Shown: positions 4,668 to 37,826 of the stretch, in pieces
How the letters are laid out: each line of letters starts with the position of its first letter
Numbering within the stretch: position 1 is the stretch's first letter
DNA from: Kribbella steppae
GTDB taxonomy: Bacteria > Actinomycetota > Actinomycetes > Propionibacteriales > Kribbellaceae
Length of the DNA: 64,000 nt
NCBI RefSeq assembly: GCF_004342025.1
Contig: NZ_SLWN01000012.1
Span: 1-64,000 of the forward strand
Reading direction: 5' to 3'
Notes under the pieces: generated by a model
The model's input: the letters and a program-made list of their open reading frames with translations, nothing else
What the model was told of the DNA's origin: nothing
Database searches by the model: none
Position numbers and translations under genes: made by a program

Positions 4668-5222
4668 ATGACCAAAGACCTGATCGATCTCGTCAAGCAG
4701 GACCATCGGGAGATCGCGCGGCTGTTCGACCAGCTTGACCGGTACCGGCACCGCCGGCCCATGCTGCGCCCAGTGTTGTCCACCCTGCTGGTCGCGCACG
4801 ACCGCGCCGAGGAGGACGTGGTCTACCCGCGGGCACGCGACGCCGGTGATGCGGAGGGAATCGGCTCGAGACAGCGCGAACACCTCCGCACCGAAGACCT
4901 GCTGGTCAGGCTGGGACACGTCGATCCCGACGACGCGGTCTTCGACACCATCCTGACCGACATCGCCGACGGGACCGACCACCACTTCCGGCACGAGGAG
5001 ACCGAGATCCTGCCCGCCCTGCGCGACCGGCTCGCCGAGGATCAGCTGGTTGAGCTCGCGGAGCCGTTCATCCGCAGCCGGGAGCACCACTTCGGCGAAC
5101 GCCCCGGTGAGCGCCGGCTGACCGATCTGCGCCGGCAAGCCGCCAACATCGGCCTGGCCGACTTCGCAGACCTGGCGGAGAACGACCTGGCAGACCTCCT
5201 CCGCAAACTCGCCGACGAGTGA
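4668..5222 (+). CDS. Hemerythrin HHE domain protein
   Basis: A 184-residue helical protein of the HHE cation-binding family, whose members bind a di-iron centre and sense or carry oxygen or help repair nitrosative damage. Metal-ligand patterns are visible: KQDHREIARLFDQLDR (first H..E), LLVAHDRAEEDVVYP (H..EE), REHLRTEDLL and HHFRHEETEILP. The exact role is unknown. ATG 4668 has a good ribosome site (AGGGAGGAACG). It stands alone between Hsp20 (divergent) and a DUF2905 gene, which fits the stress-gene context. Confidence 0.85.
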   Translation: MTKDLIDLVKQDHREIARLFDQLDRYRHRRPMLRPVLSTLLVAHDRAEEDVVYPRARDAGDAEGIGSRQREHLRTEDLLVRLGHVDPDDAVFDTILTDIADGTDHHFRHEETEILPALRDRLAEDQLVELAEPFIRSREHHFGERPGERRLTDLRRQAANIGLADFADLAENDLADLLRKLADE

Positions 5223-5591
5223 GTCAGCCCGCGCCTGATGTTCCAGAACCGGCGACGAGCAACTGTGGTCCGCCGCAGGTTCAGCAGTAGGAGATCTCGC
5301 TCACAAGGTTCCGAGCGCTGCCAGCGCAACGCGGATGTTGTCGACTGAGTTGGGAAGGCGTAGACGGCTGTGGGGCGGTTGCCGAACGGGCAGGTCTGGT
5401 CGGTCGGCTAGTCGGTCCAGATGCGCCACTTGCTTGCGGGATGTCAGCGCGCGACTGTTCGAGTACACCAGAAGGAGGCTGTCGAGGAATTCGACCGTCG
5501 GACGGACCACCACGAGAAGTCCGTCGAGCGTGAACCCACCGTGGGACTCGCCCGCCAGTTACCGTGAGAGTCAGGTTCAGGAGGCGTTTTC
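5223..5591. other. Gene-poor stretch with one doubtful ORF
   Basis: No gene is firmly supported here. A minus-strand frame at 5301-5513 (70 codons, GTG start) reads VVRPTVEFLDSLLLVYSNSR and then becomes rich in Arg and Pro. It begins right after a stop codon and has no recognisable domain. It may be a remnant or chance. A ribosome site for the next gene (CAGGAGGCG) closes the stretch. Confidence 0.3.
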
Positions 5592-5801
5592 GTGCGCGAC
5601 GTTGGCCCAGTGCTGGTCATGCTCGGCCTCGCGCTCGTGTTGCTCGGCATCCTCGCCTGGTCCGGCGCGCTGTCATGGTTCGGGCGGTTGCCTGGAGATA
5701 TTCGGATCACCGGGGAGCGCACGCAGGTGTACATCCCGATCACCTCGATGCTGATCGTGTCAGTGGTGATCACAGTTCTGCTCTCGCTATTCCGCCGATG
5801 A
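5592..5801 (+). CDS. DUF2905 small membrane protein
   Basis: A 69-residue protein with two membrane segments (VLVMLGLALVLLGILAW and SMLIVSVVITVLLSLF) joined by the conserved loop LSWFGRLPGDIRI, which defines DUF2905. The function of the family is unknown. The GTG start at 5592 follows a strong CAGGAGGCG ribosome site. Confidence 0.85.
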   Translation: MRDVGPVLVMLGLALVLLGILAWSGALSWFGRLPGDIRITGERTQVYIPITSMLIVSVVITVLLSLFRR

Positions 5802-6006
5802 CTCCAGCGCTGGTCTCTCGGCCAGCCCTCACTGACGCGCCTGAGATGCTCATGCCCGAAGCTCATCGCCATGGCGCCCTCACCGACAGCGGGGGCCACC
5901 CGCCTGATCGATCCGCTTTCACCTCTCTCGCGGCGAGAGACTCACGGCCCGCTGCAGACGCAGGCGCAGGCGCAGGTCTGTCTGATTGGCAGGCGAGCGC
6001 GTCGAG

Positions 6007-6026
6007 GACCACGCGATCCCCTGATG
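6007..6026 (+). promoter_or_regulatory. Possible degenerate site A before transketolase
   Basis: GACCACGCG-atccc-CTGATG followed by CG. The left half is one base off consensus; the right half matches four of six. It lies about 115 bases before the transketolase start, inside a 340-base gap with no other gene. Confidence 0.3.
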
Positions 6027-6141
6027 CGGTCGTCGTCGCGCAACGCGCAATCTGACTGGGCGACTCTGACCTGGCGGTTTGCGTTCGGTCGCAGGCATCC
6101 CAGCGCTCGCCGGGGACAGCGACGATGTCCGAGGAGGCGAG

Positions 6142-8190
6142 ATGGCGGTCGAAGAGCAGGAGCTGCGGCCTGACGTGGTCGTCCACAGTCACGGTGACAA
6201 CGTTCCTCAGGAGCACGGCGCCCAGGACCTCGCCGAGCTGAGCATCAACACGATCCGGACACTTGCCATCGACGCCGTCGAGACTGCCGGGTCCGGGCAT
6301 CCAGGGACACCCATGGCTCTGGCTCCTCTCGGTCACCTCCTATTCACCCGGTTCATGAGGCACGATCCGACTGATCCAACCTGGCCAGACCGGGATCGCT
6401 TCGTGCTCTCAGCCGGCCACGCCTCAATGCTCCTCTATGCGCTCCTGCACCTCTGCGGTTACGACCTCCCGCTGACGGAGCTCAAACGATTCCGCCGGCT
6501 GGGATCCCGCTGTCCCGGTCATCCCGAACGGGGTGTCACCGCGGGCGTGGAGGTGACCACCGGCCCACTCGGGCAAGGCTTCGCGAACGCCGTCGGCCTG
6601 GCTATTGCAGAGCGACTGCTGGCGGCGCGCTTCAACCGTGCTGGGCACGACATCGTCGACCACTACACCTACGTGATCTGCTCGGACGGCGACCTCATGG
6701 AGGGAGTGTCGGCAGAGGCGGCGTCCCTTGCAGGCAACCTGCCGTTGGGAAAGCTCATCGCGTTCTACGACGACAACCACATCACCATCGAGGGATCCAC
6801 CGACTTGGCCTTCTGCGAGCAGGTCGAGAAGCGCTTCGAGGCGTACGGTTGGCACGTCGTCTCCGCACCCGAGGTGAACGACCTCGACGGTCTGGCGGGG
6901 GCGATCGTCGCGGCGCGGTCAGAAACCAGCCGCCCGTCGCTGGTCATGGCGCGGTCGGTGATCGGCTACGGCGCCCCGACAAAGTCCGGGACGGCGGCGG
7001 CGCACGGAGCCCCGCTCGGTGCGGACGAAGCCCGAGCGGTGAAGGCGAATCTGGACTGGCCCTACGCGGAGCCTTTCACGGTGCCCGACATGGTGCGGAG
7101 GATGTTTCACGACGCGGTCCTAACGCCCGGACGGGCCCTGCATGCCGCGTGGCAGGAACGCTTCGCGGCGTACAGGGAGGAGTATCCCGAGCTGGCCGCC
7201 GAGTTTCAGCGGACCTGTCGGGGCGAGCTGCCCGGCGACTGGGAACGCAACCTCCCGTCCTTCACCGCCGATGGGGACATGGCCACTCGAGCCGCGTCGG
7301 GGCGTGCGCTCAACGCGCTGGCCGGCGCCATCCCGGAGATGGTCGGCGGCTCGGCAGACCTGGCGCCTTCTACGGACACCTACCTCGAGGGTTTCGGCGA
7401 CGTCTCCTGCCGTGACTTCGGTGGACGCAACTTCCACTTCGGTGTGCGGGAGCACGCCATGGGGGCGGTCCTCAACGGCCTTGCCGCGCATGGCGGGCTC
7501 CGGCCGTTCGGTGCGACGTTCCTCGTGTTCTCCGACTACATGCGGCCACCCATCAGGCTCGCCGCCCTGATGGGACTGCCGGTGGTCTTCGTGTTCACTC
7601 ATGACTCCATCGGCGTCGGCGAGGACGGACCGACTCACCAGCCCGTGGAACACCTGGTCGCCCTGCGAGCAGTCCCGGACCTCGTGGTCTTGCGCCCAGC
7701 AGATGCCAACGAGACGGCAGCGGCCTGGCAGGTGGCGATCGATCGCCGGCACGGCCCCACGGCCCTGGCCCTGACGAGACAGAAGGTGCCCATTCTGCCG
7801 CCACCACCGCCCGGTGCAGTGGCGCAGGGGGCATACGTTCGCGTCGACGGCGACGACATCGTGCTCGTGGCGAGCGGATCTGAGGTCCATGTCGCGCTCG
7901 CCGCACGAGCCCAGCTCGCCTCCTCGGGGATCTCGGCGCGGGTGGTTTCGATGCCGTCATGGGAACTGTTCGAGGCACAACCGGTCGCCTATCAGCAGGA
8001 GGTACTACCGCCCGATCGACTCACCCTCGGCGTTGAGGCGGGCCGCTCTCTGGGCTGGTGCGCCTGGGTGGACGCCATGGCGTCTGTGGACCGCTTCGGC
8101 GCGTCGGCCCCCGCCGGCAAGCTCTTCGAAGCCTTCGGGATCACACCGGACCAGATAGCTGCTCACGTCCACGCGGCGCTGGCCCGATGA
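6142..8190 (+). CDS. tkt: Transketolase
   Basis: A 682-residue thiamine-diphosphate enzyme that moves two-carbon units between sugar phosphates in the pentose phosphate pathway. Seen: [16 protein letters not shown] near the N-terminus, [15 protein letters not shown], the cofactor-binding [14 protein letters not shown], and in the second half [15 protein letters not shown] and [15 protein letters not shown]. The length is normal. ATG 6142 follows GAGGAGGCG. Its last bases overlap the next gene by ATGA, so the two are translated together. A separate phosphoketolase lies at 45 kb. Confidence 0.95.
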
Positions 8191-10829
8191 ACCCGCTGCA
8201 GCGCCTGCATGAGGCCGGGCAGAGCATCTGGGTCGACTTCCTCCGCCGTACCTTCTTGACCAGCGGGGAGCTGTCCCGCCTGACGCGAGAAGACGCCGTG
8301 AGCGGGATTACCTCGAACCCGACCATCTTTCGTCGCGCCGTCGCAGAGTCCGTTGACTATGAGCAGCCGATTCAACAACTCGTGGAGCACGGAAGCCGCG
8401 ACCCTCGTGAGATCTTCTACCAGATGGCCCTGGCCGACATCCGGGCAGCCGCGGAGGTGCTGCGCCCCGTGTACGTCCAAACCAAAGGGCATGACGGGTT
8501 CGTGTCGTTCGAGCTGGAACCGCGCCTCGCGCATGACACGCCCGGATCCGTCTCCGTGGCTCGGCATCTTGCGGAACACATCGACAAGCCGAACGTCATG
8601 ATCAAGGTTCCGGGGACCTCGGAGGGCATCCTCGCCGTCGAGGAGCTCACCGCCGCAGGGGTGAATGTGAACATCACCCTGCTGTTCTCGGTGGCGACCT
8701 ACGAGGACGTGGCCGAGGCCTATCTCGCCGGTCTCGAGCACCGCCTGGCCGCTGGACAGGAGCTCGAGCGGGTGGCCTCCGTCGCGTCGTTCTTCGTCTC
8801 GCGGGTTGACAGCGCCATCGACGGACTGCTTCCCGAAGGCTCGCCGCTGCGGGGCCAGGTTGCCATCGCGAACGCCAAGCAGGCCTACCAACGATTCCTG
8901 ACCGTGTTCTCCGGCGCACGATGGGACCGTCTGGCACGCGCCGGTGCACGGGTCCAGCGGCCCCTGTGGGCATCGACGGGGACGAAGAACCCAGCGTACT
9001 CGGACGTTCGCTACGTCGAGGAGCTGATCGGCCCGTCGACAGTGAACACGATGCCCCTGTCCACCCTCGACGCGTTCCGGGACCACGGATGTGTCCGTCC
9101 GCTCACGGTCCTTGCGGATCTCGACGAGGCAGAGGCAGTCTTCCTGCTGCTCCGTGAGCACGGCATCGACCTGGAGGATGTCGCCGCGGGGCTGCTCGCG
9201 GACGGGCTCGCCGGCTTCGCCGCCGACATGGAGGAACTGCTGGCCGCCATCGCAGCGAAGGTGAAGCCGGCCAGGCTGCGCGGCCAGAACACCCCCACAA
9301 ACCTCGGTGTTCTTGCGCCGACTGTGGCCAAGCGCCTGGACGACGCGGCCCGCAACGAGACGGCATCGCGGATCTGGAGCCGCGACCACACTGTCTGGAA
9401 GCCGGACGCCACCGAGATCTCCGATCGGCTCGGCTGGCTGGGCCTTCCCGAGACGATGCCGGAACGGACCGGCGAGCTCCAGGCGTTCGTGAGGCAGGTG
9501 AGAGCCGACGGGTTCACGCAAGCCCTGCTGCTCGGCATGGGAGGATCGAGCCTCGCTCCGGAGGTGTATCGCCGGGTGCTCGGCGTTGCGCCGGGCGGAG
9601 TCGACCTCACAATCCTCGACAGCACGCATCCGCGCGCGATCGCCGCCGTCGAGCGCTCTCGCGATCTCGAGCACACGCTCGTGGTCGTCAGCTCCAAGTC
9701 CGGGGGCACGGTGGAGACACTCTGCCACTGCGACTACTTCTTTGCGAAGACCGGTCGCGGAGAGCAGTTCGTGGCGATCACCGACCCCGGCAGCCCTCTT
9801 GAGGCGCTGGCGCGGCGGCGGGGGTTCCGGGCGGTCTTCCTGAACCCTCCTGACGTCGGCGGCCGCTATTCGGCGCTGTCCGTCTTCGGGCTTCTGCCCG
9901 CAGCCTTGATCGGCGCCGACGTCGCAGCGATCCTCGAGGCCGGTGCCGAGATGGCCTGTGCCTGCGACCGATACGTGGCCGGCTCGGAGAACCCTGGGCT
10001 CTGGCTGGGGGCGCTGATGGGGGAGGCTGCCCGGGCCGGACGAGACAAGCTCACGCTGATACTCGCCGCTGATCTGGCGCCCTTCGGCGCCTGGGCGGAG
10101 CAACTCGTAGCGGAGTCCACGGGCAAGGAAGGTACCGGGATCGTTCCGGTGGTCGACGAGGAGCTCGGGGGGGTCGGCAGCTACGGTCCTGATCGCCTGT
10201 TCGTGGCACTCGGCGACGTGGACGGGCTGTCCGATCTCGCCGCGGCGGGACACCCCGTCGCCCGGCTGCGGGTCTCGGGTCCGGAGCGCCTAGGGGCTGA
10301 GTTCTTCCGCTGGGAGTTCGCCACCGCCGTGGCCGGCCACGTGCTCGGCGTCAACCCCTTCGACCAGCCGAACGTGGCGGAGGCCAAGAAGGCCGCACTA
10401 CACATCCTGAAGGAACGCCGCCTCGACGACGACCCCGGGCTCGACGATCTCAACGGCCCACTGGGCAGCCTCGGTCGAGGCGACTACGTCGCCCTGCTGG
10501 CCTACATCGACCCCACCCCGGCGAACACGGATCGGCTCCAGCGCATCCGACTGGCGATCCGGGACCGGAAGCACGTGGCCACAACCCTCGGCTTCGGCCC
10601 CCGCTACCTCCACTCCACCGGCCAGCTGCACAAGGGAGGCCCGGACAGCGGGCTGTTCATCCAGGTGGTCGACGAAACGTGCGAGCTCGATCTGCCCATT
10701 CCCGGCCGCCCCTTCAGCTTCGGAGAGCTGCTCGCTGCCCAGGTGCTCGGAGACCAGTTGGCCCTGCGCCGGCTGGGTCGCCGGGTGGCCCGGACGACCC
10801 TTCGCGCGCTGGAGGAGGCCACTCTGTGA
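8187..10829 (+). CDS. Bifunctional transaldolase / glucose-6-phosphate isomerase
   Basis: An 880-residue fusion. Residues 1 to about 365 are transaldolase ([20 protein letters not shown] near the N-terminus, the Schiff-base lysine region in [31 protein letters not shown]). About 400-880 are a phosphoglucose isomerase ([54 protein letters not shown]). It would join the non-oxidative pentose phosphate pathway to fructose-6-phosphate/glucose-6-phosphate exchange. Such fusions are known in several bacteria. It overlaps tkt by ATGA and so belongs to the same operon. Confidence 0.93.
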
Positions 10830-10908
10830 CCTCTGCCCGACGACCGCAGCTCGCCGACGCCCCAATACTTTCACCAAGGCAAGAGCACGTCCCCAGGGCA
10901 ACGGTGCG

Positions 10909-10928
10909 GACTACGCATTCGGGGGATG
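10909..10928 (+). promoter_or_regulatory. Site A copy before the BON-domain gene
   Basis: GACTACGCA-ttcgg-GGGATG, one mismatch in the left half and exact in the right. It ends 185 bases before the gene, the longest distance seen, so either the leader is long or the site acts from afar. Confidence 0.55.
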
Positions 10929-11112
10929 CTTGCCCGCCGTACAGGTGGAACCGTTCGCGAAGAGGCCGCTGATCCCGGCAAGCCCTCACCGTCGAGGTTG
11001 CCAAGGCGTGAGCCGCCGGTAGCGGGAACGAATAGGAGCGAAGGTCGAAACCGGATCGGTTGGCATGCGTCTGCACAGCATCAGAACGAGATCAGCCAGG
11101 AGGAAGTAACCA

Positions 11113-11793
11113 ATGGGGACAGCAACGGCAACGGTCAGCGATGAGGAGATCCAGCGGGAGGTCCTGGACGAACTCAAGTGGGAAGCCCGCGTTCAGCCCA
11201 ACGAGATCGGCGTCGCGGTGAAGGATGGCGTCGTGGTCCTGACGGGATGGGTGGATTCCTACACGAAGAAGTGGGCGGCAGAGCGGGCAGCGCACAGTCT
11301 GCGTGGGGTGGCAGCAGTCGCCAACGAAATCGAGGTTCGGCTTCCGAGTTCTGCCGAGCGTACCGACGCAGACATCGCAGCAGCCGCGACCCGCGCGCTG
11401 GAATGGGACGCGTTGGTGCCGATCGAGAAGATTGACGTCACGGTATCCAAAGGTTGGGTCACTCTTCGTGGTGAAGTCGAGTGGCAGTTCCAGAAGCACG
11501 ACGCGGAGCGGGCTGTTCGCCGCCTGTCGGGCGTGCGTGGGGTGAGCAACCTCATCAAGGTCACACCACGGGTCAAGCCATCACCGGACGAGCTGAAGAG
11601 GAGGATCGAGGACGCCCTCGTGCGCAGCGCCGAGACAGACGCCGAACGGATCACGACTGAGGTGCATGGGGACAGGGTCATCCTGAAGGGAACCGTCCGC
11701 TCATGGGCTGAGAGGAGGGAGGCGGAGCGAGTGGCCTGGTCCGCGCCCGGAGTGGCCTCGGTCGACAACCAGATCACTGTGCGCGCGTACTAG
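11113..11793 (+). CDS. Triple BON-domain stress protein
   Basis: A 226-residue protein of three BON repeats, each with the pattern of a start helix, a GxVxLxGxV strand pair and a closing V..V turn: VKDGVVVLTGWVDSYTKKW, VSKGWVTLRGEVEWQFQKHD, VHGDRVILKGTVRSWAERRE. There is no signal peptide, unlike the periplasmic OsmY. BON domains are thought to bind membranes or small ligands; the family is osmotic- and stress-linked. ATG 11113 follows CCAGGAGGAAGT. It stands alone. Confidence 0.85.
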   Translation: MGTATATVSDEEIQREVLDELKWEARVQPNEIGVAVKDGVVVLTGWVDSYTKKWAAERAAHSLRGVAAVANEIEVRLPSSAERTDADIAAAATRALEWDALVPIEKIDVTVSKGWVTLRGEVEWQFQKHDAERAVRRLSGVRGVSNLIKVTPRVKPSPDELKRRIEDALVRSAETDAERITTEVHGDRVILKGTVRSWAERREAERVAWSAPGVASVDNQITVRAY

Positions 11794-12031
11794 CCGAACC
11801 GCCCTGCACCACCGCTCGGTTTCGTGTGCCACAGCTCACGACAACTGCTCATCCGCTTGACGATCAGCCGGGTCGACGCCAGTCGCGTGTTGGCGCCGAA
11901 CTCGCGGGAGACCTCGCGAAGGTGGACAACATGGTGTGCGGACTGGAAGCACCGCCACGAAGGCCAGCTCACGCCTCCGAATACGTGAGCATTGCTCTGG
12001 ACGGCACGCCGCCCCGAGACCGGCGCGGAAG

Positions 12032-12051
12032 AACGACCTGGGTACGGGATG
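12032..12051 (+). promoter_or_regulatory. Site A-like sequence, no near gene
   Basis: AACGACCTG-ggtac-GGGATG followed by TT. It resembles the AACCAC-type left halves before 28883 and dnaK. The next start codon on this strand is 300 bases away. Confidence 0.35.
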
Positions 12052-12261
12052 TTGGGCGGGCGGAGCCTCCAAGAGGCTGCTCTGAACAGGTCCTTCCAGT
12101 TCCCGGCCAGCGCCGGGTTGCCGTCGGACAGCGTCGACGTCTCGGGAGGGCTCAGCCGTCGTTGACACGTGGGTTCTGCATCCATCGGAGACCCTGCTAT
12201 GCCACCTCAATCCGGTGTGACGGGGCTGGTGTTCCACCTTCCGCTACGGCCTGCGCCCGGA

Positions 12262-12282
12262 TACCACTCGTTCCCGGGGATG
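12262..12282 (+). promoter_or_regulatory. Site A variant (six-base spacer) before the thioredoxin-like gene
   Basis: TACCACTCG-N6-GGGATG followed by C. The left half matches AACCACCCG at seven of nine positions. It ends 68 bases before ATG 12351, within the usual distance range, but has one extra spacer base. Confidence 0.4.
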
Positions 12283-12350
12283 CAGCCCGCAGCCACTCGC
12301 GACGGTGGACCCGAGCAGGCGGTCGTGTGCTAGGTCGGGACGGAGCTGAG

Positions 12351-12797
12351 ATGACAGCCGCGCCGAAGCTCGTCACATGTCCGAGGTGCCAGCGCCGCAA
12401 CCGTGTCCCGGCGGCGGCGAAGGGCGCACCGCGCTGCGGCAACTGCCGGCTGCCGCTGCCGTGGGTCGTGGACGCCGGCGACGGCGACTTCGGTCACATC
12501 GCCGACACCGCCACCGTGCCGGTGCTGGTGGACCTCTGGGTGCCCTGGTGCTCACCCTGGCGGTTCGTCAGCTCGGTGCTCGAGAAGCTCGCGACCGAGA
12601 AGGCCGGTGAGCTGAAGCTGGTGAAAGTCAACGCCGGCGACGCGCCCGCAGTATCGCAACGGTTCGAGACCCAGGCGAACTCCACTTTGATTCTGTTGAG
12701 CGGCGGGCAGGTGGTCGCGCGCCAGGCCGGCGCCGCGCCGGCCGCCGTACTGCGGCAGTGGCTGGAGGATGCGGTGACCGGCCAGGTGGCGTCGTGA
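12351..12797 (+). CDS. Thioredoxin-like protein lacking the active-site motif
   Basis: A 148-residue paralogue of the thioredoxin at 35753. The N-terminal zinc ribbon is intact (CPRC, then CGNC). In the thioredoxin domain the active site WCGPC reads WCSPW, so the second cysteine is gone. The cis-proline loop SIPT of the paralogue reads ANST, so the cis-proline is gone too. The flanking sequence is well kept (TEKAGELKLVKVNAGDAP), so the frame is under some constraint. It cannot carry out normal dithiol exchange; it may bind partners or be decaying. It overlaps the UBP zinc-finger gene by GTGA. Confidence 0.85.
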   Translation: MTAAPKLVTCPRCQRRNRVPAAAKGAPRCGNCRLPLPWVVDAGDGDFGHIADTATVPVLVDLWVPWCSPWRFVSSVLEKLATEKAGELKLVKVNAGDAPAVSQRFETQANSTLILLSGGQVVARQAGAAPAAVLRQWLEDAVTGQVAS

Positions 12798-13057
12798 ACA
12801 GGGGCGTGGACCCGCACCTGGCACTGATCCGTCCGGTTGCGCCACGCACCCCGGAGGGTTGCGAGGAGTGCCTGCGGCTGCACACCGCCTGGGTGCATCT
12901 GCGGCTCTGCCTGACCTGCGGTCACGTGGGGTGCTGCGACTCCTCGCCGATGCGGCACGCCCGCGCGCACGCGGTGTTCCAAGGGCACCCGATCGTCCAG
13001 TCGTTTCAGCCGGGCGAGGACTGGCGCTGGTGCTACGTCCATGAGGCCTACGCGTGA
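12794..13057 (+). CDS. UBP-type zinc-finger protein
   Basis: An 87-residue protein made almost wholly of one UBP zinc finger. The ligands are seen in order: GCEECLRLHTAWVHLRLCLT, CGHVGCCDSS, HARAHAVFQGHPIVQSF. In eukaryotes this finger binds the ubiquitin tail; bacterial stand-alone versions are common beside thioredoxin/TrxR-like genes but their ligand is unknown. The GTG start overlaps the stop of the thioredoxin-like gene, and its own TGA overlaps the next start, so three genes are coupled. The right-hand trx-TrxR locus lacks this gene. Confidence 0.85.
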   Translation: MNRGVDPHLALIRPVAPRTPEGCEECLRLHTAWVHLRLCLTCGHVGCCDSSPMRHARAHAVFQGHPIVQSFQPGEDWRWCYVHEAYA

Positions 13058-13338
13058 CCGACGCGGCCGAACCGGCCGAGACCCCTGACCCGTACGGCGT
13101 CCACCCGCGGCGCGACGAAGCCCACCTCACCGAGCTACACAGGTACCGCACCCGTCGTAGGACGCGGGACGGCGAGGTCGGCAGGCTCGCCGTGGCCACC
13201 CTCCGGGCCGTCCGTCGGGGGAGGGGTGGTGCGCCCTCGCAGCAAACCACCATGCGCGCTGATCCTCGAGGGCACGCCCAGCTCCCGACTGCGCGATTCG
13301 GGGATGTGTTGTTCTCGCCCCAGTCCGAGGCTCTTTGA
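13054..13338 (+). pseudogene. 5' remnant of the cyclic-nucleotide-binding TrxR-like gene
   Basis: The first 30-35 codons (ETPDPYGVHPRRDEAHLTEL) match the N-terminus of the intact protein at 36201 (ETPDLYGAYPRLDEYQLAEL). Past about 13160 similarity stops and the frame becomes Arg/Gly-rich to a stop at 13338. The whole nucleotide-binding and oxidoreductase part is absent. The GTG start, coupled to the zinc-finger gene, is still in place. This is the broken counterpart of the trx-TrxR pair at 35.7-37.8 kb. Confidence 0.7.
13287..13306 (+). promoter_or_regulatory. Site A copy before the DUF2267 gene
   Basis: GACTGCGCG-attcg-GGGATG followed by TG. The left half is identical to the Hsp20 site although the spacer differs. 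It ends 59 bases before ATG 13366. Confidence 0.65.
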
Positions 13339-21209: not shown

Positions 21210-21875
21210 ATGGCTGATCAGCCCGTCTACAGCATCGGGGCCCTCGTGCGGATGCTCGGCATCCCGGCGGCGACGCTGCGGACGTGGGAGGACCGGTACG
21301 GGGTCGTGGTGCCCGAGCGGAGCCCGGGCGGTCACCGCCTGTACTCGCGACTGCAAGTGGAGCAACTGCGCTTCGTCGGTGACCGATTGTCGGACGGGAT
21401 GTCGGTCGGCGACGCATACCGGCTGCTGCAGCGCCGCTTGGCCAGCGGCGTACCACTGGAGACTGCAAGAATCCCGGACGGCGACGGCCTGCTTGTCCTG
21501 GTGGCCGAGCAGGACCCGTTCGCCGCCGACTTCTCCGACTACTTCCTGCGGACGGAAGGGTACGGCGTCACGGTCATCTCCACGGCCGAGCAGGCGGTGG
21601 CTGAAGTCGTACGGAAGACTCCGGATCTCGTACTGATCGATCTGCTGATCTCCGGCGCACAGGGACTCCGGCTCTGCGCCCAGTTGCGCCGGCAATTCGA
21701 TGTTCCGGTGCTGGCGATCTCCACGCTCGATCTCCGGGATGAGGCGCTGGAGGCCGGCGCAGCCGCTTTTCTGAAGAAACCACTCGAGCCGCTGCGACTG
21801 GTGTCTGTCGTCCGGGACCTGCTGGGACAGAGCGCCTACCTGCGCTCGGGCTCCGCTGCGGAATCCAGCCCATGA
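21210..21875 (+). CDS. MerR-type HTH fused to a receiver domain
   Basis: A 221-residue regulator. Residues 5-75 form a MerR helix-turn-helix (YSIGALVRMLGIPAATLRTW, RYGVVVPERSPGGHRLYS). About 90-210 form a response-regulator receiver (LLVLVAEQDPF, phospho-acceptor Asp in DLVLIDLL, KKP lysine motif in AAAFLKKPLEP). No histidine kinase is nearby. The ATG at 21210 is the first good start. Its stop overlaps the KaiC-like start by ATGA, so the two proteins are made together and may work together. Confidence 0.85.
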   Translation: MADQPVYSIGALVRMLGIPAATLRTWEDRYGVVVPERSPGGHRLYSRLQVEQLRFVGDRLSDGMSVGDAYRLLQRRLASGVPLETARIPDGDGLLVLVAEQDPFAADFSDYFLRTEGYGVTVISTAEQAVAEVVRKTPDLVLIDLLISGAQGLRLCAQLRRQFDVPVLAISTLDLRDEALEAGAAAFLKKPLEPLRLVSVVRDLLGQSAYLRSGSAAESSP

Positions 21876-23254
21876 ACGACCGAATGACCTCTGGGTCGGA
21901 TCCGCTCGATGTCGTCCTTGGTGGCGGACTGCCCCGCAACGCGATCGTCCTGGTGATGGGCGCCCCCGGTGCCGGTAAGACGATAGTCGCGCAGCAGTGG
22001 GTGTTCGCCAACGCCACCCCTGAACTGCCGGCCCTGTACCTGTCGACGGTCTCCGAGCCGCTGGAGAAGCTCCTGAGGTACGGTCAGACGCTGTCGTTCT
22101 TCGACCCGACCGCAGTCGGGCGAAGCATCTGGTACGAGGACCTCGGGACAATCCTCCGTGACCAAGGCCTGCAGGGAGTTCTCGACCGCGTGCGCGAGCT
22201 CATCCGAGTCAGGCAGCCTGCGATGATCGTGATCGACAGCTTCAAGGCGATGCATCCCTACGCCGGCCGGAGTGGTGGCTTTCGCCCGTTCCTTCACGAT
22301 CTCGCCGGCATGCTGAGCGCCTTCCCCGCGACCTCGATGTGGGTCGGCGAGTACCAGGAGGACGAGATCCAGCGCTCTCCCGAGTTCGCTGTGGCCGATG
22401 CGATCATCGCGCTGAAAAGCGTTCGTTCCGCCGAACGCACGTCCCGGGTTCTCCAGGTACACAAGCTCCGCGGCGGTGGCTTCCTGTCCGGGACGCACTC
22501 CTACCGCCTTTCGGACGAGGGCATCACGGTCTATCCCCGACTCGCCGACCCTGCAGATTCGAGGGACTACGAACTGCGCGGTGAGCGGGTTCCGTCCGGT
22601 ATCCAGGCGCTCGACGACATGCTCGAGGACGGCTACTGGTCGGGGGCGTCGACCCTGGTGGCGGGACCCACCGGAATAGGGAAGACACTGATGGGATTGC
22701 ATTTCGTCTTCCATGCCGTCAACCAGGGCGAACGCGCGATCATCGCGACGATGCAGGAGCATCCGTCGCAGCTGGAGCGAACGGCGGCGCAGTTCGGCTG
22801 GTCTGTGAAGGCCGACAATCTGATACTCATGTACCGCAGCCCCGTCGATCTCAACGTGGACCAGTGGGTGTACGAGCTCCTGGACATGATCGAGACCACC
22901 GGGGCCAGCAGGGTCCTCCTGGACAGCCTCGCAGACCTGCAGGTCGCGGCGCCTGATCAGGTGCGCTTCAGGGAGTACCTCTACTCCCTGCTACACAGGT
23001 CGTCGCGTTACGGCACGAGCCTGATGATGACCTATGAGCTCCCTGAGCTGTTCGGGGTGTCCAGACTCTCGGACGTGGCGGTGTCGCACCTGGCCGACAA
23101 CGTCGTACTGCTGCAATACAGACGTGTAGCCGGGGTGATGTCGCGCACGCTCACGGTGCTGAAGACACGGGCCACCGACCACGAGTCCGGAGTCAAGGAC
23201 TTCGAGATCACCGCCGATGGGATCATGCTCGTTCCCGAGCCCGCCACTGAGTGA
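21872..23254 (+). CDS. KaiC-like double RecA-fold ATPase
   Basis: A 460-residue protein with two KaiC/Rad55 domains. P-loops are MGAPGAGKTIVAQQWVF (about residue 30) and GPTGIGKTLMGLHFVF (about 270). Walker B-like strands are PAMIVIDSFKAM and SRVLLDSLADL. Such double-domain KaiC relatives outside cyanobacteria act in signal transduction, often as ATP-dependent switches for regulators. It is translationally coupled to the MerR-receiver protein and followed by two LuxR-type ATPase regulators. Confidence 0.88.
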   Translation: MNDRMTSGSDPLDVVLGGGLPRNAIVLVMGAPGAGKTIVAQQWVFANATPELPALYLSTVSEPLEKLLRYGQTLSFFDPTAVGRSIWYEDLGTILRDQGLQGVLDRVRELIRVRQPAMIVIDSFKAMHPYAGRSGGFRPFLHDLAGMLSAFPATSMWVGEYQEDEIQRSPEFAVADAIIALKSVRSAERTSRVLQVHKLRGGGFLSGTHSYRLSDEGITVYPRLADPADSRDYELRGERVPSGIQALDDMLEDGYWSGASTLVAGPTGIGKTLMGLHFVFHAVNQGERAIIATMQEHPSQLERTAAQFGWSVKADNLILMYRSPVDLNVDQWVYELLDMIETTGASRVLLDSLADLQVAAPDQVRFREYLYSLLHRSSRYGTSLMMTYELPELFGVSRLSDVAVSHLADNVVLLQYRRVAGVMSRTLTVLKTRATDHESGVKDFEITADGIMLVPEPATE

Positions 23255-29496: not shown

Positions 29497-31377
<1,881 letters not shown>

Positions 31378-31382
31378 TCGGG

Positions 31383-31880
31383 ATGGGCGATCAGGAGACC
31401 AACACTGGTACGGCGCCGCCGCCGGTCGAGGAGGCTCTGGAGGAAGCGCGCGAGCAGGCCGCCGAGATGGAGGACAGGTGGCGGCGCACGGCAGCGGAGC
31501 TGGACAACTTCCGGAAGCGGGTCGCGCGGGAGTCCGACCAGCAGCGGGAGACCGAGCGTGCCCTGGTCGCCGCCAGTTGGCTGCCGGTCGTCGACAACCT
31601 GGAGCTGGCGCTGGAGCACGCCGACGCCGAGTACGACGCGATCGTCGAAGGTATCCAGGCTGTGCGGGACCAGGCGCTCGGAGTACTGGCCGGACTCGGC
31701 TACCCGCGGTTCGACGACAGCGGGAAACCCTTCGACCCGGCGCTGCACGAAGCGGTCGGCACGACGCCCACCCCTGACGTACCGGCCGGCACGATCGTCC
31801 ACGTCGTCCGGCCCCGGTACGGCGACGGGACGCGGGTGCTTCGTCCGGCTGCCGTGGTAGTCGCCGCGCAGGAGAGCTGA
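31383..31880 (+). CDS. grpE: Nucleotide exchange factor GrpE
   Basis: A 165-residue cochaperone that releases ADP from DnaK. A coiled coil ([20 protein letters not shown]) precedes the conserved [28 protein letters not shown] and the C-terminal beta domain [16 protein letters not shown]. It starts five bases after the dnaK stop and its TGA overlaps the dnaJ ATG (TGATG). Confidence 0.94.
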
Positions 31881-32830
31881 TGCCTGCCAAGGATTTCTAC
31901 GACATCCTTGGGGTCTCCCGCGGCGCGAGCGCCGACGAGATCCAGAGCGCTTACCGTCGGCTGGCTCGCCAGTACCACCCGGACGTGAACAAGGACCCTG
32001 ACGCCGAGGAACGGTTCAAGCAGGTCTCCGAGGCCTACGACGTACTGTCCGATCCACAGCAGCGCAAGCGGTACGACGCGTTCGGCGAGGACTTCCGCCG
32101 GGTGCCTCCGGACGTCGACCCCGACACGTACGCCCGTTCCCGCGCCGGTACCGGCCGGGCTGGGAGCGACGGCTGGGCCTGGGAGAGTACCTGGGATGCC
32201 GGAGGGACACAGTTCGATACCGAGGGCATCGATCTGGAGGACCTGCTCGGCGGGATGTTCGGCGGGCGAACCCGGCGCGGCTGGGGCCGGATCCCGGGCT
32301 CGGACCAGGAGGTCGAGCTGGAGCTGACCGTCGAGGAGGCCTACCGGGGTGGCAACCGGAAGCTGACCGTGCACGGTCCGACCGGTGCGGACCGGACCAT
32401 CGACGTCAAGATCCCGGCAGGCGTGGTGAACGGTCAGCGGATCCGGCTGGGCGCGCAAGGCGGCCAGGGCACCGGTGGCGCGCCCGCCGGTGACCTGTAT
32501 CTGGTGGTCCGAATCGCAGATCATCCGCGGTACAGAGTGTCTGGCCGTGACCTCACGGTCGATCTGCCGCTCGCCGCGTGGGAAGGCGCACTGGGGGCGT
32601 CGGTGCCGGTCGAGACCCCAGGTGGTGAGGCGACGGTGAAGGTGCCGAAGGGCAGCTCGACCGGACGCAGGCTGCGGCTCAAGGGCCGCGGTCTGCCGAA
32701 CCCCCGCGGGACGCCGGGCGACCTGTACGCCGAGGTCAGGCTGATGGTGCCCGAGAGGCTGACCCGCGAGGAGGAGCGCCTGTTCGAGGAGCTGGCCGGT
32801 ACGTCGAAGTTCGACCCGAGGAGGCGGTGA
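31880..32830 (+). CDS. DnaJ-type cochaperone, CbpA-like (no zinc finger)
   Basis: A 316-residue Hsp40. The J-domain is at residues 3-70 ([23 protein letters not shown] in [15 protein letters not shown]). A Gly/Trp-rich linker follows, then two C-terminal beta domains ([39 protein letters not shown]). The cysteine-rich zinc finger of classical DnaJ is absent, so it is a class II, CbpA-like form. This fits with the CbpM-like gene that overlaps its stop. Confidence 0.92.
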
Positions 32831-33138
32831 TGACGTATCCGTTGACCAGGCCCACCCGCCTCGCGCTGGAGGACTTCGCCCGGCTGACCGGCGCACATCC
32901 CGAACTGCTGAAGCGGTTCGTCGCCCTCGGTTTGCTCGAGGCAACGACCGACAGCACCGGTGAGTTGTGGTTCAGGCCGCAGCAGCTGGCCCTGGTGGCC
33001 CGGATCCAGCGGTTGCGAGCCGGTTTTGCCCTGAACTATGCGGCGCTGGGGCTTGTGATGGACCTGCTGGACCGGATCGCCGTACTGGAGGCGGAGCGCA
33101 GGCGTTTCGCCAGAGGAGGAGCCAGGACATGGATATGA
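32830..33138 (+). CDS. CbpM-like chaperone modulator
   Basis: A 102-residue MerR-like helical protein: [37 protein letters not shown], then a long C-terminal helix. CbpM proteins bind the J-domain of CbpA and tune its activity; HspR, found in the usual actinobacterial dnaK operon, is a related MerR repressor. Position and the CbpA-type partner favour CbpM. The C-terminal regulatory tail of HspR is not seen. ATG 32830 overlaps the dnaJ stop, with AGGAGG upstream. Confidence 0.78.
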
Positions 33139-35756
33139 ACCGGCTGACGCAGAAGTCGCAGGAGGCTCTGCACGACGCTCAGACGAAAGCCCTGCGGTTC
33201 GGGCACAGTCAGATCGACGGCGAGCATTTGCTGCTGGCGCTGCTGGAGCAACCAGACGGTCTGGCCCCGAGGCTGCTGGCCCAGGCCGGTGCGGATCCGG
33301 ACGGGCTGCGGGACAACCTGGAAACGGAGCTGTCCCGGCGTCCCAAGGTCAGCGGTCCGGGCGCGGAGCCTGGCCAGGTGTTGATCACCCAGCGGTTGTC
33401 CCGGCTTCTTGACGCCGCGGACCGGGAGGCCAAGCGCCTCAAGGACGAGTACGTCTCGATCGAGCATCTGGTGATCGCGTTGCTGGATGAGGGCCGGCAG
33501 AGCACCTCCGGGCGGCTGCTCGCCGAGCAGGGGTTGACCCGCGACGGCTTCCTCTCGGCGCTGACCGCCGTCCGGGGGAACCAGCGGGTCACCTCGGCGA
33601 TGCCGGAAGCGTCGTACGAGGCGTTGGAGAAATACGGCCGGGACCTGGTCAAGGATGCGTCGGAGGGCCGGCTGGATCCGGTCATCGGCCGGGACAACGA
33701 GATCCGCCGCGTTGTGCAGATTCTGTCCCGCAAGACCAAGAACAACCCGGTGCTGATCGGCGACCCGGGCGTCGGCAAGACCGCGATCGTCGAGGGTCTC
33801 GCGCAACGGATCGCCAACGGCGACGTACCGGAGGGGTTGCGGGACCGGACCGTGTTCGCGCTGGACATGGCTTCGCTGGTTGCCGGGGCCAAGTACCGCG
33901 GCGAGTTCGAGGAACGGTTCAAGGCCGTGCTCAACGAGGTGAAGGCGGCCGAGGGCCGGATCCTGTTGTTCGTCGACGAGTTGCACACTGTGGTGGGTGC
34001 GGGTGCGACCGAAGGCGCGATGGACGCGGGCAACATGCTGAAGCCGATGCTGGCCCGCGGTGAGCTGCACATGATCGGCGCCACCACGCTGGACGAGTAT
34101 CGGATGCACGTCGAGAAGGACGCGGCTCTGGAACGGCGGTTCCAGCCGGTGGTCGTGGACGAGCCGACGGTCGAGGATGCGATCTCGATCCTGCGCGGAT
34201 TGCGTGAGCGGCTCGAAGTCTTCCACGGCGTGAAGATCCAGGACGCGGCGATGGTCGCGGCCGTGGTGCTCAGCCACCGGTACATCTCCGACCGGTTCCT
34301 GCCGGACAAAGCGATAGATCTCGTGGATGAGGCATGCGCGATGCTGCGGACCGAGATCGACTCGATGCCGGCCGAGTTGGACGAGCTGACCCGGCGGGTG
34401 CGCCGGCTGGAGATCGAAGAGGCCGCGCTGGCCAAGGAGGAGGACGCCGCCAGCCGGCAGCGGCTGGACGAACTGCGCAAGGAACTGGCCGATCTACGGG
34501 CCGAGGCTGACGCGATGCACGCGCAGTGGGAGGCGGAACGGCAGGCGTTGCGCAAGGTCCAGACGCTGCGGCAGGAGATGGAGCAGGTCCGGCAGGAGGC
34601 AGAGCAGGCCGAGCGCGACTACGACCTGAACCGGGCAGCCGAACTGCGGCACGGCCGGCTACCGGAGCTCGAACGTCAGCTCGCGGCCGAGGAGGAACGA
34701 CTGGCCAGCAAGCAGCACGATCACCGGCTGTTACGCGAGGTCGTGACCGAGGAAGAGATCGCCTCGATCGTGTCGCGGTGGACCGGCATCCCGGTCAGCC
34801 GTCTGCAGGAGGGCGAACGGGAGAAGCTGCTGCGGCTGGACGAGGTGCTGCACGAGCGGCTGGTCGGGCAGGACGAGGCGGTCCAGCTGGTGGCGGATGC
34901 GATCATCCGGGCCCGTTCGGGGATCAAGGACCCGCGCCGGCCGATCGGCTCGTTCATCTTCCTGGGCCCGACCGGGGTGGGGAAGACCGAGCTGGCCAAG
35001 ACGCTCGCGGCGGCGCTGTTCGACACAGAGGAGAACATCGTCCGGATCGACATGAGTGAGTACCAGGAGCGGCACACGGTGAGCCGGCTGGTGGGGGCGC
35101 CACCCGGGTACGTCGGCTACGAGGAGGGCGGCCAGTTGACGGAGGCCGTCCGGCGCAAGCCGTACTCCGTAGTCCTGTTCGACGAGATCGAGAAGGCGCA
35201 CCCGGACGTCTTCAACACGTTGCTGCAGATCCTCGACGACGGTCGGCTGACCGACGCCCAGGGTCGGACTGTGGACATGCGCAACACCGTGATCATCATG
35301 ACGTCGAACATCGGGTCGGCGTACCTGCTGGACGGAGTGACCGCGGACGGGCAGGTCAAGGAGGACGCGCGGGACGCCGTGATGGACGAGCTGCGACGGC
35401 AGTTCCGGCCTGAGTTCCTCAACCGGGTGGACGAGATCGTGCTGTTCAAGCCGCTCACCATGGCCGAGATCGAGCGCATCGTGGACCTGATGTTCGACGA
35501 CCTGCGGACCCGGCTGGCGGATCGCCGGATGACGCTCGAGGTCGCACCGGACGCGGCCCGGCACATCGCCGCGCAGGGCTTCGACCCGGTGTATGGCGCC
35601 CGCCCGCTGCGGCGGTTCATCGCGCGCGAGGTGGAGACCAGGATCGGTCGCGCCTTGCTGGGCGGCAATGTGCTGGACGGGGCGGTGATCCGGGTGACCG
35701 TCCAGGACGGCGACATCGCCGTCACGCACGAGAACCCCGTGGAGGTGGCGGCATGA
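33129..35756 (+). CDS. clpB: ClpB disaggregase
   Basis: An 875-residue AAA+ disaggregase that rescues aggregated proteins with DnaK. N-domain residues 1-145 ([20 protein letters not shown]), first AAA with [18 protein letters not shown], a coiled-coil middle domain about 400-540, and second AAA with [20 protein letters not shown]. The pore loop [14 protein letters not shown] is present. ATG 33129 is favoured by AGAGGAGGA nine bases before it, and overlaps the CbpM-like end by ten bases. It ends ATGA into the thioredoxin gene. Confidence 0.95.
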
Positions 35757-36187
35757 AGGTCGTGACCTGTCCGAATTGTCAGCGCCGCAACCGGGTGCCC
35801 GCTGCGGCGGAAGGCACCCCCCGGTGCGGCAATTGCCAGAAGCCGCTGCCTTGGATCGTCGATGCCGGCGACAGCGATTTCGCCGAGGTCGTGGAGCAGG
35901 CAAGCGTGCCGGTGCTGGTCGACGTCTGGGCCCCATGGTGCGGACCGTGCCGGATGGTCAGTCCCGTGCTCGAACAACTCGCCACCGAGAAGGCTGGACA
36001 GATGAAACTGGTCAAGGTCAACGCCGACGAGGCGCCGGAGCTGTCCCAGCGCTTCGAGGTGAGGTCGATTCCGACCCTGCTGGTGCTGCGCCACGGGCAG
36101 GTTGTCGCGACGCAGATCGGTGCGGCGCAGGCAACGGTCCTGCGGCCCTGGCTCGAAGGAGCGCTGGCCAAGGAGGCAGCGTCGTGA
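35753..36187 (+). CDS. Thioredoxin with N-terminal zinc ribbon (TrxC type)
   Basis: A 144-residue protein. Two CxxC pairs (CPNC near the start, then CGNC) form a zinc ribbon as in thioredoxin 2. The thioredoxin domain has the full active site [19 protein letters not shown] and the cis-proline loop [13 protein letters not shown]. It reduces protein disulphides. It is coupled to clpB by ATGA, and the TrxR-like gene follows. The left-hand paralogue at 12351 has lost both active-site elements. Confidence 0.93.
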
Positions 36188-36200
36188 CCGGCATACCCGG

Positions 36201-37826
36201 ATGCTCCGGATGAAGGAGACGCCAGACCTGTACGGGGCCTATCCCCGGCTGGACGAATACCAGCTGGCCGAGCTGACGCCTCTGGGTGAGCGCCGCACGA
36301 CCAGTGCCGGTGAGGTGCTGCAGCAGGCGGGGGAGCCACCAGACGAGTTCATTGTCGTGCTCGACGGCACGGTTGCCATTGTGCAGGATCTGGGCCAGCC
36401 GGAACGTGTCATCGCCGTCCACGGTCCACGCCGCTTCCTCGGCGAGATCGGCATGCTGACCGGGCAGCCGATGTTCCTCACCGCGGTGGCGCAGGAGCCG
36501 GGCGAGGTGCTGGCCGTGCCACTCGACCGGCTGAGAGACCTGGTACCGCAGGATCCCCGGCTGGCCGACCTGATTCTGCGAGCGTTCCTGATCCGCCGGT
36601 CACTCCAGCTCACACTCGGCGCGGGCTTCGCGATCATCGGGTCACGGTTCTCCGCCGACACCCGCCGGTTGCGCGAGTTCGCGGCGCGCAACCGGCTGCC
36701 ACATCAGTGGGTCGACCTGGAGACCGACGCGGAGGCCGAGCGCCTGCTTCGCGAACTCGGCATCAAACGGGACGAAACCCCAGTGGTGATCTGGCGGGGT
36801 GAGGTGCTGCGGAACCCGGACAACGAACGCTTGGCCGCCGCGGTGGGGCTCCGCCGTACGACGCCGGTGCAGTCGGTGTGCGACCTGATCGTTGTCGGCG
36901 CGGGTCCAGCCGGTCTCGCGGCAGCGGTGTACGGCGCGTCAGAAGGTCTCGCGACCGTGGTCCTGGATGCTGTGGCCACCGGAGGCCAGGCGGGCACTGC
37001 GTCGAGGATCGAGAACTACCTTGGCTTCCCGGCGGGCATCAGCGGCGCCGAACTGGCCGACCGCGCTGAGATCCAGGCCAGACGCTTCGGCGCCGAAATC
37101 ACCGTGCCCGCCACCGCCATCGCCCTGGAGGAGCGGGATGGGCACCACGTAGTACTGCTGGAGAACGAAGCACGCATGAGCAGCCGGGCCGTACTGATCG
37201 CCTCCGGTGTTCGCTACCGAAAACTTGACCTGCCCGGACTGGACGCCGTCACTTCGACCAGCGTGTACTACGCGGCGACCGAGCTGGAGGCGAACCTGTG
37301 CCGGAACGACCCGGTGGTGATCGTCGGTGGCGGCAACTCCGCCGGACAAGCCGCCGTTTTCCTCGCCCAGCACGCGGCCGACGTGGTGCTTGTGGTCCGG
37401 AGCAACGAACTCGGGCAGGACATGTCCCGCTATCTGGCCGACCGGATTGAGCAGACCGAGGGGGTCGATGTGCTGGTACACAGTGAACTGCGCGAGGCCC
37501 GCGGTGAACGGGCGCTGCAGGAGGTCGTGGTGGAGGACTTGAAGACGGGGGAGCGTCACGTCGAACCCGCGAAGGCCTTGTTCGTCTTCATCGGCGGCCT
37601 CCCGCACGTCCGCTGGCTGAGCGACCAGATCGACTTGGACGATCGGGGCTTCGTCCTCACGGGCAGCCAGCTGCCAGGCGAGCGGCAGCTGCTCGAGACC
37701 AGCAGGACGGGAGTCTTCGCCGCCGGCGACGTCCGCAGCGGGTCGGTGAAACGAGTGGCCGCCGCTGTGGGCGACGGCGCCCTCGCCATCCGCATGGTTC
37801 ACGAGCACCTCGGCCGTTCTCGGTGA
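36201..37826 (+). CDS. TrxR-like flavoprotein fused to a cyclic-nucleotide-binding domain
   Basis: A 541-residue three-part protein. Residues about 20-140 are a cyclic-nucleotide-binding domain (EVLQQAGEPPDEFIVVLDGT, RRFLGEIGMLTGQPMF). About 155-230 are a thioredoxin-fold segment (ETPVVIWRGEVLRNP). About 230-540 are thioredoxin-reductase-like (LIVVGAGPAGLAAAVYGASE, VIVGGGNSAGQAAVFLAQ, FAAGDVRSGSVKRVA). The CxxC redox pair between the FAD and NAD parts is absent (VYYAATELEANLC), so it cannot reduce thioredoxin in the usual way. The start is uncertain between ATG 36201 and 36210. The truncated paralogue is at 13054. Confidence 0.87.
   Translation: MLRMKETPDLYGAYPRLDEYQLAELTPLGERRTTSAGEVLQQAGEPPDEFIVVLDGTVAIVQDLGQPERVIAVHGPRRFLGEIGMLTGQPMFLTAVAQEPGEVLAVPLDRLRDLVPQDPRLADLILRAFLIRRSLQLTLGAGFAIIGSRFSADTRRLREFAARNRLPHQWVDLETDAEAERLLRELGIKRDETPVVIWRGEVLRNPDNERLAAAVGLRRTTPVQSVCDLIVVGAGPAGLAAAVYGASEGLATVVLDAVATGGQAGTASRIENYLGFPAGISGAELADRAEIQARRFGAEITVPATAIALEERDGHHVVLLENEARMSSRAVLIASGVRYRKLDLPGLDAVTSTSVYYAATELEANLCRNDPVVIVGGGNSAGQAAVFLAQHAADVVLVVRSNELGQDMSRYLADRIEQTEGVDVLVHSELREARGERALQEVVVEDLKTGERHVEPAKALFVFIGGLPHVRWLSDQIDLDDRGFVLTGSQLPGERQLLETSRTGVFAAGDVRSGSVKRVAAAVGDGALAIRMVHEHLGRSR

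Follow-up and report, generated by a model that had tools for sequence, protein, structure and literature searches.

Incomplete active sites are common in the thioredoxin fold class, only 56.8% of which keeps both cysteines (PMC2757866). The CnoX protein of Escherichia coli has an SXXC thioredoxin domain without reductase activity, and its clients are bound by mixed disulfide and passed to DnaK/GroEL (PMC6282202). Several laboratory variants are comparable. In the WCGPA trap, a thioredoxin deprived of the resolving Cys remains joined to the client through a mixed disulfide (PMC6282202). The replacement of Pro76 by Ala in E. coli thioredoxin leaves the fold in place with the bond in trans, lowers the activity about 100-fold, and harms recognition by thioredoxin reductase, TrxR (PMC4485320). 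In DsbA P151T, the loop is perturbed and full turnover is blocked, while stable mixed disulfides were not seen in vitro with a peptide (PMC13269488); stable adducts of this mutant are attributed to Kadokura et al. in a citation in PMC6295897. Such laboratory mutants have been used for trapping client mixed disulfides (PMC6282202; PMC6295897). The protein described here, Trx*, is a natural variant among these redox-altered thioredoxin-fold proteins. A search of the open library for literature on Kribbella thioredoxins found none.

Trx* is encoded by ORF 12351–12797 (plus strand) in a 64,000-nucleotide stretch of the 9.1 Mb Kribbella steppae genome, hereafter the window. It is a TrxC-type thioredoxin paralogue of 148 aa that lacks the resolving Cys and the cis-Pro, and its translation contains VDLWVPWCSPWRF and RFETQANSTLILL. 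The ATG at 12351 was taken as the start codon because it is preceded by a ribosome-binding-like GGAG and by 19 conserved bases, the sequence farther upstream being different in the relatives; a 323-aa ORF (11826–12797) was thus rejected as the gene. As is typical of TrxC-type proteins, an N-terminal zinc ribbon (C10-x2-C13 ... C29-x2-C32; 12378–12446, plus strand) is followed by a thioredoxin domain, and all four ribbon cysteines are kept in the three species that carry Trx*. The protein passes the Pfam Thioredoxin model (PF00085; 55.5 bits, cut-off 23.5) and falls below the cut-off of the NCBIfam thioredoxin model (TIGR01068; 72.7 bits, cut-off 96.8), which the canonical paralogue encoded at 35753–36187 passes with 114.4 bits.

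For the analysis of the active site, Trx* was compared to 44 TrxC-type homologues from Kribbella, Streptomyces, Amycolatopsis, Microbispora and others, every one of which has both WCGPC and the cis-Pro. In Trx*, the motif reads WCSPW (W66–W70; 12546–12560, plus strand), with Gly68 changed to Ser and the resolving Cys70 to Trp. The cis-Pro before beta-4, which stands in an I/V-P-T context and aligns with position 111, is replaced by Ser111 (12681–12683, plus strand), giving N-S-T in all three species. The invariant proline of helix alpha-2 is likewise replaced by Ser75 (12573–12575, plus strand). The two main changes named in the original prediction are therefore real, but its wording that both catalytic hallmarks are gone was too strong, as the nucleophilic Cys67 is retained, together with Asp61 and Trp66. 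With WCSPW in three species, Trx* lacks the WCGPC dithiol site of a catalytic thioredoxin. The surrounding domain, zinc ribbon and frame are preserved, as had been proposed: among the 54 positions conserved in at least 95% of the homologues, 45 are unchanged in the Trx* of all three species. Six carry substitutions identical in all three (A64V, G68S, C70W, P75S, D96G and P111S), and the remaining three (R18, G30 and S74) vary within the Trx* group. Judging by known thioredoxin structures, D96 probably lies in the loop after beta-3 and faces the active site. Most of the six shared changes are found at or beside the active site, and the core and the zinc ligands are untouched.

Orthologues with the same six changes, none of them with a normal WCGPC, were found in K. 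soli (92%) and K. jiaozuonensis (84%), the two closest matches at the locus. Since the changes are identical in these two independently sequenced genomes, sequencing error is ruled out. The changes were not found outside Kribbella in a close-relative scan of 84,980 species genomes, and no orthologue, as judged by score, was detected outside the genus in 294 genomes of the order. A search of plasmids gave no orthologue either, all matches being below 60% identity. When 396 genomes of the phylum were searched for the pattern W..WC.PW, the output was dominated by chance hits in G+C-rich DNA; two matches that were read, a recurrent one (G060) and the one most similar to a thioredoxin (G290), are not thioredoxins. 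The frame is intact through residue 144 in all three species, and a search for frame-breaking changes in K. soli and K. jiaozuonensis found none inside the Trx* domain. At the tail, the last residues are frameshifted in K. soli, and the K. jiaozuonensis protein stops four residues early; what had appeared to be a TAG inside the latter gene is this natural stop and not a break in the domain.

Structure prediction supports a thioredoxin fold. The AlphaFold2 model of Trx*, built on an 18-row alignment, has a pLDDT of 83.9 and a pTM of 0.82, with the ribbon and the thioredoxin elements complete, compared to 91.7 and 0.87 for the canonical paralogue modelled on the same sequence set. The drop is mainly in residues 61–80, which form the strand, loop and helix of the altered active site (pLDDT of 68 and 74 versus 91 and 94 in the matching canonical blocks). 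The best Foldseek match of the model is Trx2 of D. radiodurans (7d6l; TM 0.84).

The canonical paralogue (35753–36187, plus strand), with WCGPC and the cis-Pro, shares 66% identity with Trx* and is part of a dnaK-grpE-dnaJ-clpB-trx-TrxR operon, in which its partner is an intact cNMP-binding/thioredoxin-reductase fusion (36210–37826, plus strand). A second canonical relative (69% identity) is found on contig C21 (98014–98930); WCGPC is present in it, while its ribbon is one Cys short (RGNC for CGNC), and downstream come a seemingly intact gene for a UBP zinc-finger protein and fragments of a broken TrxR gene. In the tree, all Trx* sequences fall into a single clade (support 100/100) with a long stem, and this clade groups moderately with the C21 copy (86/73). 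Downstream of Trx* in the window lie an intact zf-UBP gene (12794–13057, plus strand), overlapping the Trx* stop by four bases (GTGA, 12794–12797), and an ORF (13054–13338, plus strand) that holds an N-terminal remnant of the cNMP-binding/thioredoxin-reductase fusion (homology in codons 9–42, about 13078–13179). The order dnaK-grpE-dnaJ-clpB-trx-UBP-TrxR accompanies canonical thioredoxins in Streptomyces, Amycolatopsis and on a Rhodococcus plasmid, and, on the basis of this shared gene order, the Trx*-UBP-(TrxR remnant) array is read as a duplicate of the trx-UBP-TrxR end of such an operon, the reductase having since been lost. The operon in the window (29497–37826) provides the genome with a second set of chaperones, since contig C22 also encodes a full ClpB. 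Its distribution in Kribbella is patchy and a Rhodococcus plasmid carries it as well, all of which gives it the look of a mobile actinobacterial module for stress tolerance; relatives of its trx gene are also found on Streptomyces and Nocardia plasmids.

Trx* lies in a stress island that also encodes Hsp20, DnaK, GrpE, DnaJ, ClpB and a canonical thioredoxin. Inside the island, a transaldolase/phosphoglucose isomerase-like fusion (8190–10829) adjoins a transketolase gene (6160–8190) to form a small pentose-phosphate cluster. A KaiC-like ATPase (21872–23254) is encoded in the window with the Hsp20 gene on one side and two large AAA/regulator-like ORFs on the other. A strongly conserved leader (10908–11002, plus strand), nearly identical in the three Kribbella species, stands before a gene for a protein with three BON domains (11113–11793, plus strand) in the window and directly before Trx* in K. 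soli and K. jiaozuonensis, where the BON gene is missing from the matching place between leader and Trx*. No second copy of the leader was found in the genome, and it is possible that it is a regulatory element of the Trx* transcript. Elsewhere in the genome, a thioredoxin-domain protein without any active-site Cys (L007, WSPRSQAS; contig C11, 322901–323200) is perhaps CnoX-like.

The simplest alternative to a function is that Trx* is an early pseudogene, a duplicate in which TrxR and then UBP have decayed and whose own frame is merely unbroken so far. Both partners are indeed dead or truncated in place, the Trx* tail shows the small changes described above, and selection is relaxed relative to the canonical copies (2dlnL 10.1). 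Codon maximum likelihood, in an implementation of our own with 24 sequences, gave omega values of 0.083 for the canonical background, 0.116 for the Trx* stem, which is long and near saturation, and 0.231 for the Trx* crown. A crown omega of 1, as expected of a pseudogene along with frame breaks, was nevertheless rejected (2dlnL 21.7), and the rejection holds with a smaller tree, with other topologies and with each domain alone (8.7 when only the ribbon is used, 12–22 for the thioredoxin domain and across topologies). A permutation test with the substitution spectrum preserved gave 37.3 expected nonsynonymous changes, versus 29 observed (P = 0.008). By a counting method, the omega of Trx* (0.31–0.50) is like that of the neighboring hemerythrin gene over the same time (0.35–0.53). 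The open frame alone is weak evidence of retention, because only 1.1 stops are expected among the 52 substitutions and the chance of seeing none is 0.33. However, not a single indel was found in 432 bp of Trx* in K. soli or K. jiaozuonensis, while the next 84 bp, the UBP remnant, carry two events in each. The concentration of fixed changes at the active site also speaks against decay. Divergence is low in this region: in the segment from hemerythrin to Trx* (window 4683–12866), dS is 0.08–0.17 versus 0.22–0.32 in the flanking genes downstream, which suggests, from the sequences compared, a recent exchange of this segment among Kribbella species. Its transketolase, transaldolase/isomerase and BON genes are present inside the segment in the window only. 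As Trx* is restricted to three species and local dS is low (0.13–0.17), decay would so far have had little chance to become visible, a point that, like the relaxed selection, also weighs against a binding function. Taken together, the fixation in three species, the kept fold and zinc ligands, and an omega below 1 support the view that Trx* is not simply decaying and is probably kept for something besides catalysis; the pseudogene explanation is considered unlikely.

If Trx* is retained, binding to the adjacent UBP protein, as the original prediction proposed, is one candidate reason. The overlap of the two genes and the integrity of both zinc-binding proteins in the window agree with it, but the coupling is not conserved: beside Trx* in both K. 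soli and K. jiaozuonensis, an early frameshift truncates the UBP gene, homology ending after about 25 codons, and DUF2267 behind it is partly or wholly deleted, Trx* itself being retained. An obligate partner should be intact wherever Trx* occurs. Moreover, since UBP genes also adjoin canonical thioredoxins, the adjacency is best explained as inherited from the parent operon and not specific to Trx*. Other intact UBP genes are present elsewhere in both relatives, so that binding in trans is conceivable; nonetheless, with the neighbor broken in two species and the adjacency ordinary, scaffolding for the adjacent UBP is unlikely to be what maintains Trx*, and this part of the proposal now appears very improbable. 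Another explanation is that Trx* works as a monothiol redox protein: Cys67 would attack the target, and the resulting intermediate would be resolved by a small thiol or another Cys. Actinobacteria use mycothiol, which could be such a thiol. The retention of Cys67, Asp61 and Trp66 fits this role, and Cxxc sites make up 8.9% of the fold class (PMC2757866); however, the lost cis-Pro is needed for efficient turnover in related enzymes (PMC13269488; PMC4485320), Cys70 is replaced by Trp instead of the Ser or Thr usual in monothiol enzymes, and the adjacent TrxR is a remnant, which together make monothiol chemistry improbable. The least probable of the alternatives is metal or Fe-S binding, in which cis-Pro loss would let Cys67, perhaps in a dimer, ligate a metal. 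According to Su et al. 2007, as cited in PMC2757866, metal is kept away from the thiolates of the active site by the cis-Pro, but only a single active-site thiol remains in Trx* and Trp70 is bulky.

The reading preferred here, tentatively and at somewhat less than an even chance, is that Trx* is a client-binding, chaperedoxin-like protein with a single reactive Cys and a reduction cycle that is no longer completed. The analysis itself establishes the substitutions and their fixation in three species, signals of a preserved fold with its zinc ligands, purifying selection, and the loss of TrxR and, in two species, of UBP. From the published mechanisms cited above, the missing reductase and the location in a stress island, we infer client binding, the use of Cys67 and hand-over to DnaK/ClpB; the DnaK/ClpB neighborhood is by itself only suggestive of a holdase role. 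According to this proposal, a chaperone/redox operon of Kribbella would have been duplicated at its trx-UBP-TrxR end, and the copy would have lost its own reductase partner while its active site was remodelled by the changes of the resolving Cys to Trp, the cis-Pro to Ser and the alpha-2 Pro to Ser. The product, still predicted to fold as a zinc ribbon and a thioredoxin domain, would be unable to finish the dithiol reduction cycle or to be recycled well by thioredoxin reductase. Its groove and the lone active-site Cys67 may then bind clients that are oxidised or partly unfolded, by contact and possibly also through a mixed disulfide, and the clients might be freed by DnaK/ClpB and the active thioredoxin of the same island. 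A stricter form is regarded as improbable: Trx* would be a natural substrate-trapping thioredoxin, in which evolution has joined two freezing changes known from the laboratory, the removal of the resolving Cys and the replacement of the cis-Pro, to yield a covalent thiol holdase serving the DnaK/ClpB stress island. A difficulty for the preferred reading is that Trp70, together with a distorted cis-Pro loop, may leave Cys67 buried or out of position, and DsbA P151T formed no stable mixed disulfides in vitro (PMC13269488).

Among thioredoxins with incomplete active sites, the case of Trx* is very recent, and an intact parent gene is present in the same genome. It is useful in that the parent operon is known and selection is measurable, and it appears to capture a reductase turning into something else while the fold and the zinc ribbon stay. 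The pair of Trx* and its canonical paralogue offers a direct test of the residues that separate reduction from client holding, and, if the trapping form were true, Trx* would be nature's counterpart of a laboratory tool. The laboratory trapping mutants (WCGPA; cis-Pro mutants such as DsbA P151T) likewise lack the resolving Cys and/or the cis-Pro with the first Cys kept, but Trx* is natural, combines both changes and has Trp at the resolving position, and trapping by it is putative. The E. coli SXXC form of CnoX/YbbN is likely to be similar in the way it works, as its thioredoxin domain lost CXXC reductase chemistry in one lineage and is linked to DnaK (PMC6282202). In CnoX, however, it is the first Cys that has been lost, a different Cys is retained for client binding, and a C-terminal TPR domain serves to hold clients, whereas Trx* keeps the first Cys and consists of the ribbon and thioredoxin domain only; it is thus not a member of CnoX/YbbN. 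TFP2 of Leptospirillum is, like Trx*, a single-domain thioredoxin-fold protein and has chaperedoxin-like activity, but unlike Trx* it keeps both active-site cysteines and reductase activity (PMC11241051). By sequence and fold, Trx* is closest to thioredoxin 2/TrxC (PDB 1v98, 7d6l, 3p2a, 2ppt), with which it shares the zinc ribbon and thioredoxin fold and to which its direct paralogues in the same genome (66–69% identity) belong, and it differs from them in WCSPW for WCGPC, in Ser at the cis-Pro and alpha-2 Pro positions, and in its sub-threshold NCBIfam score.
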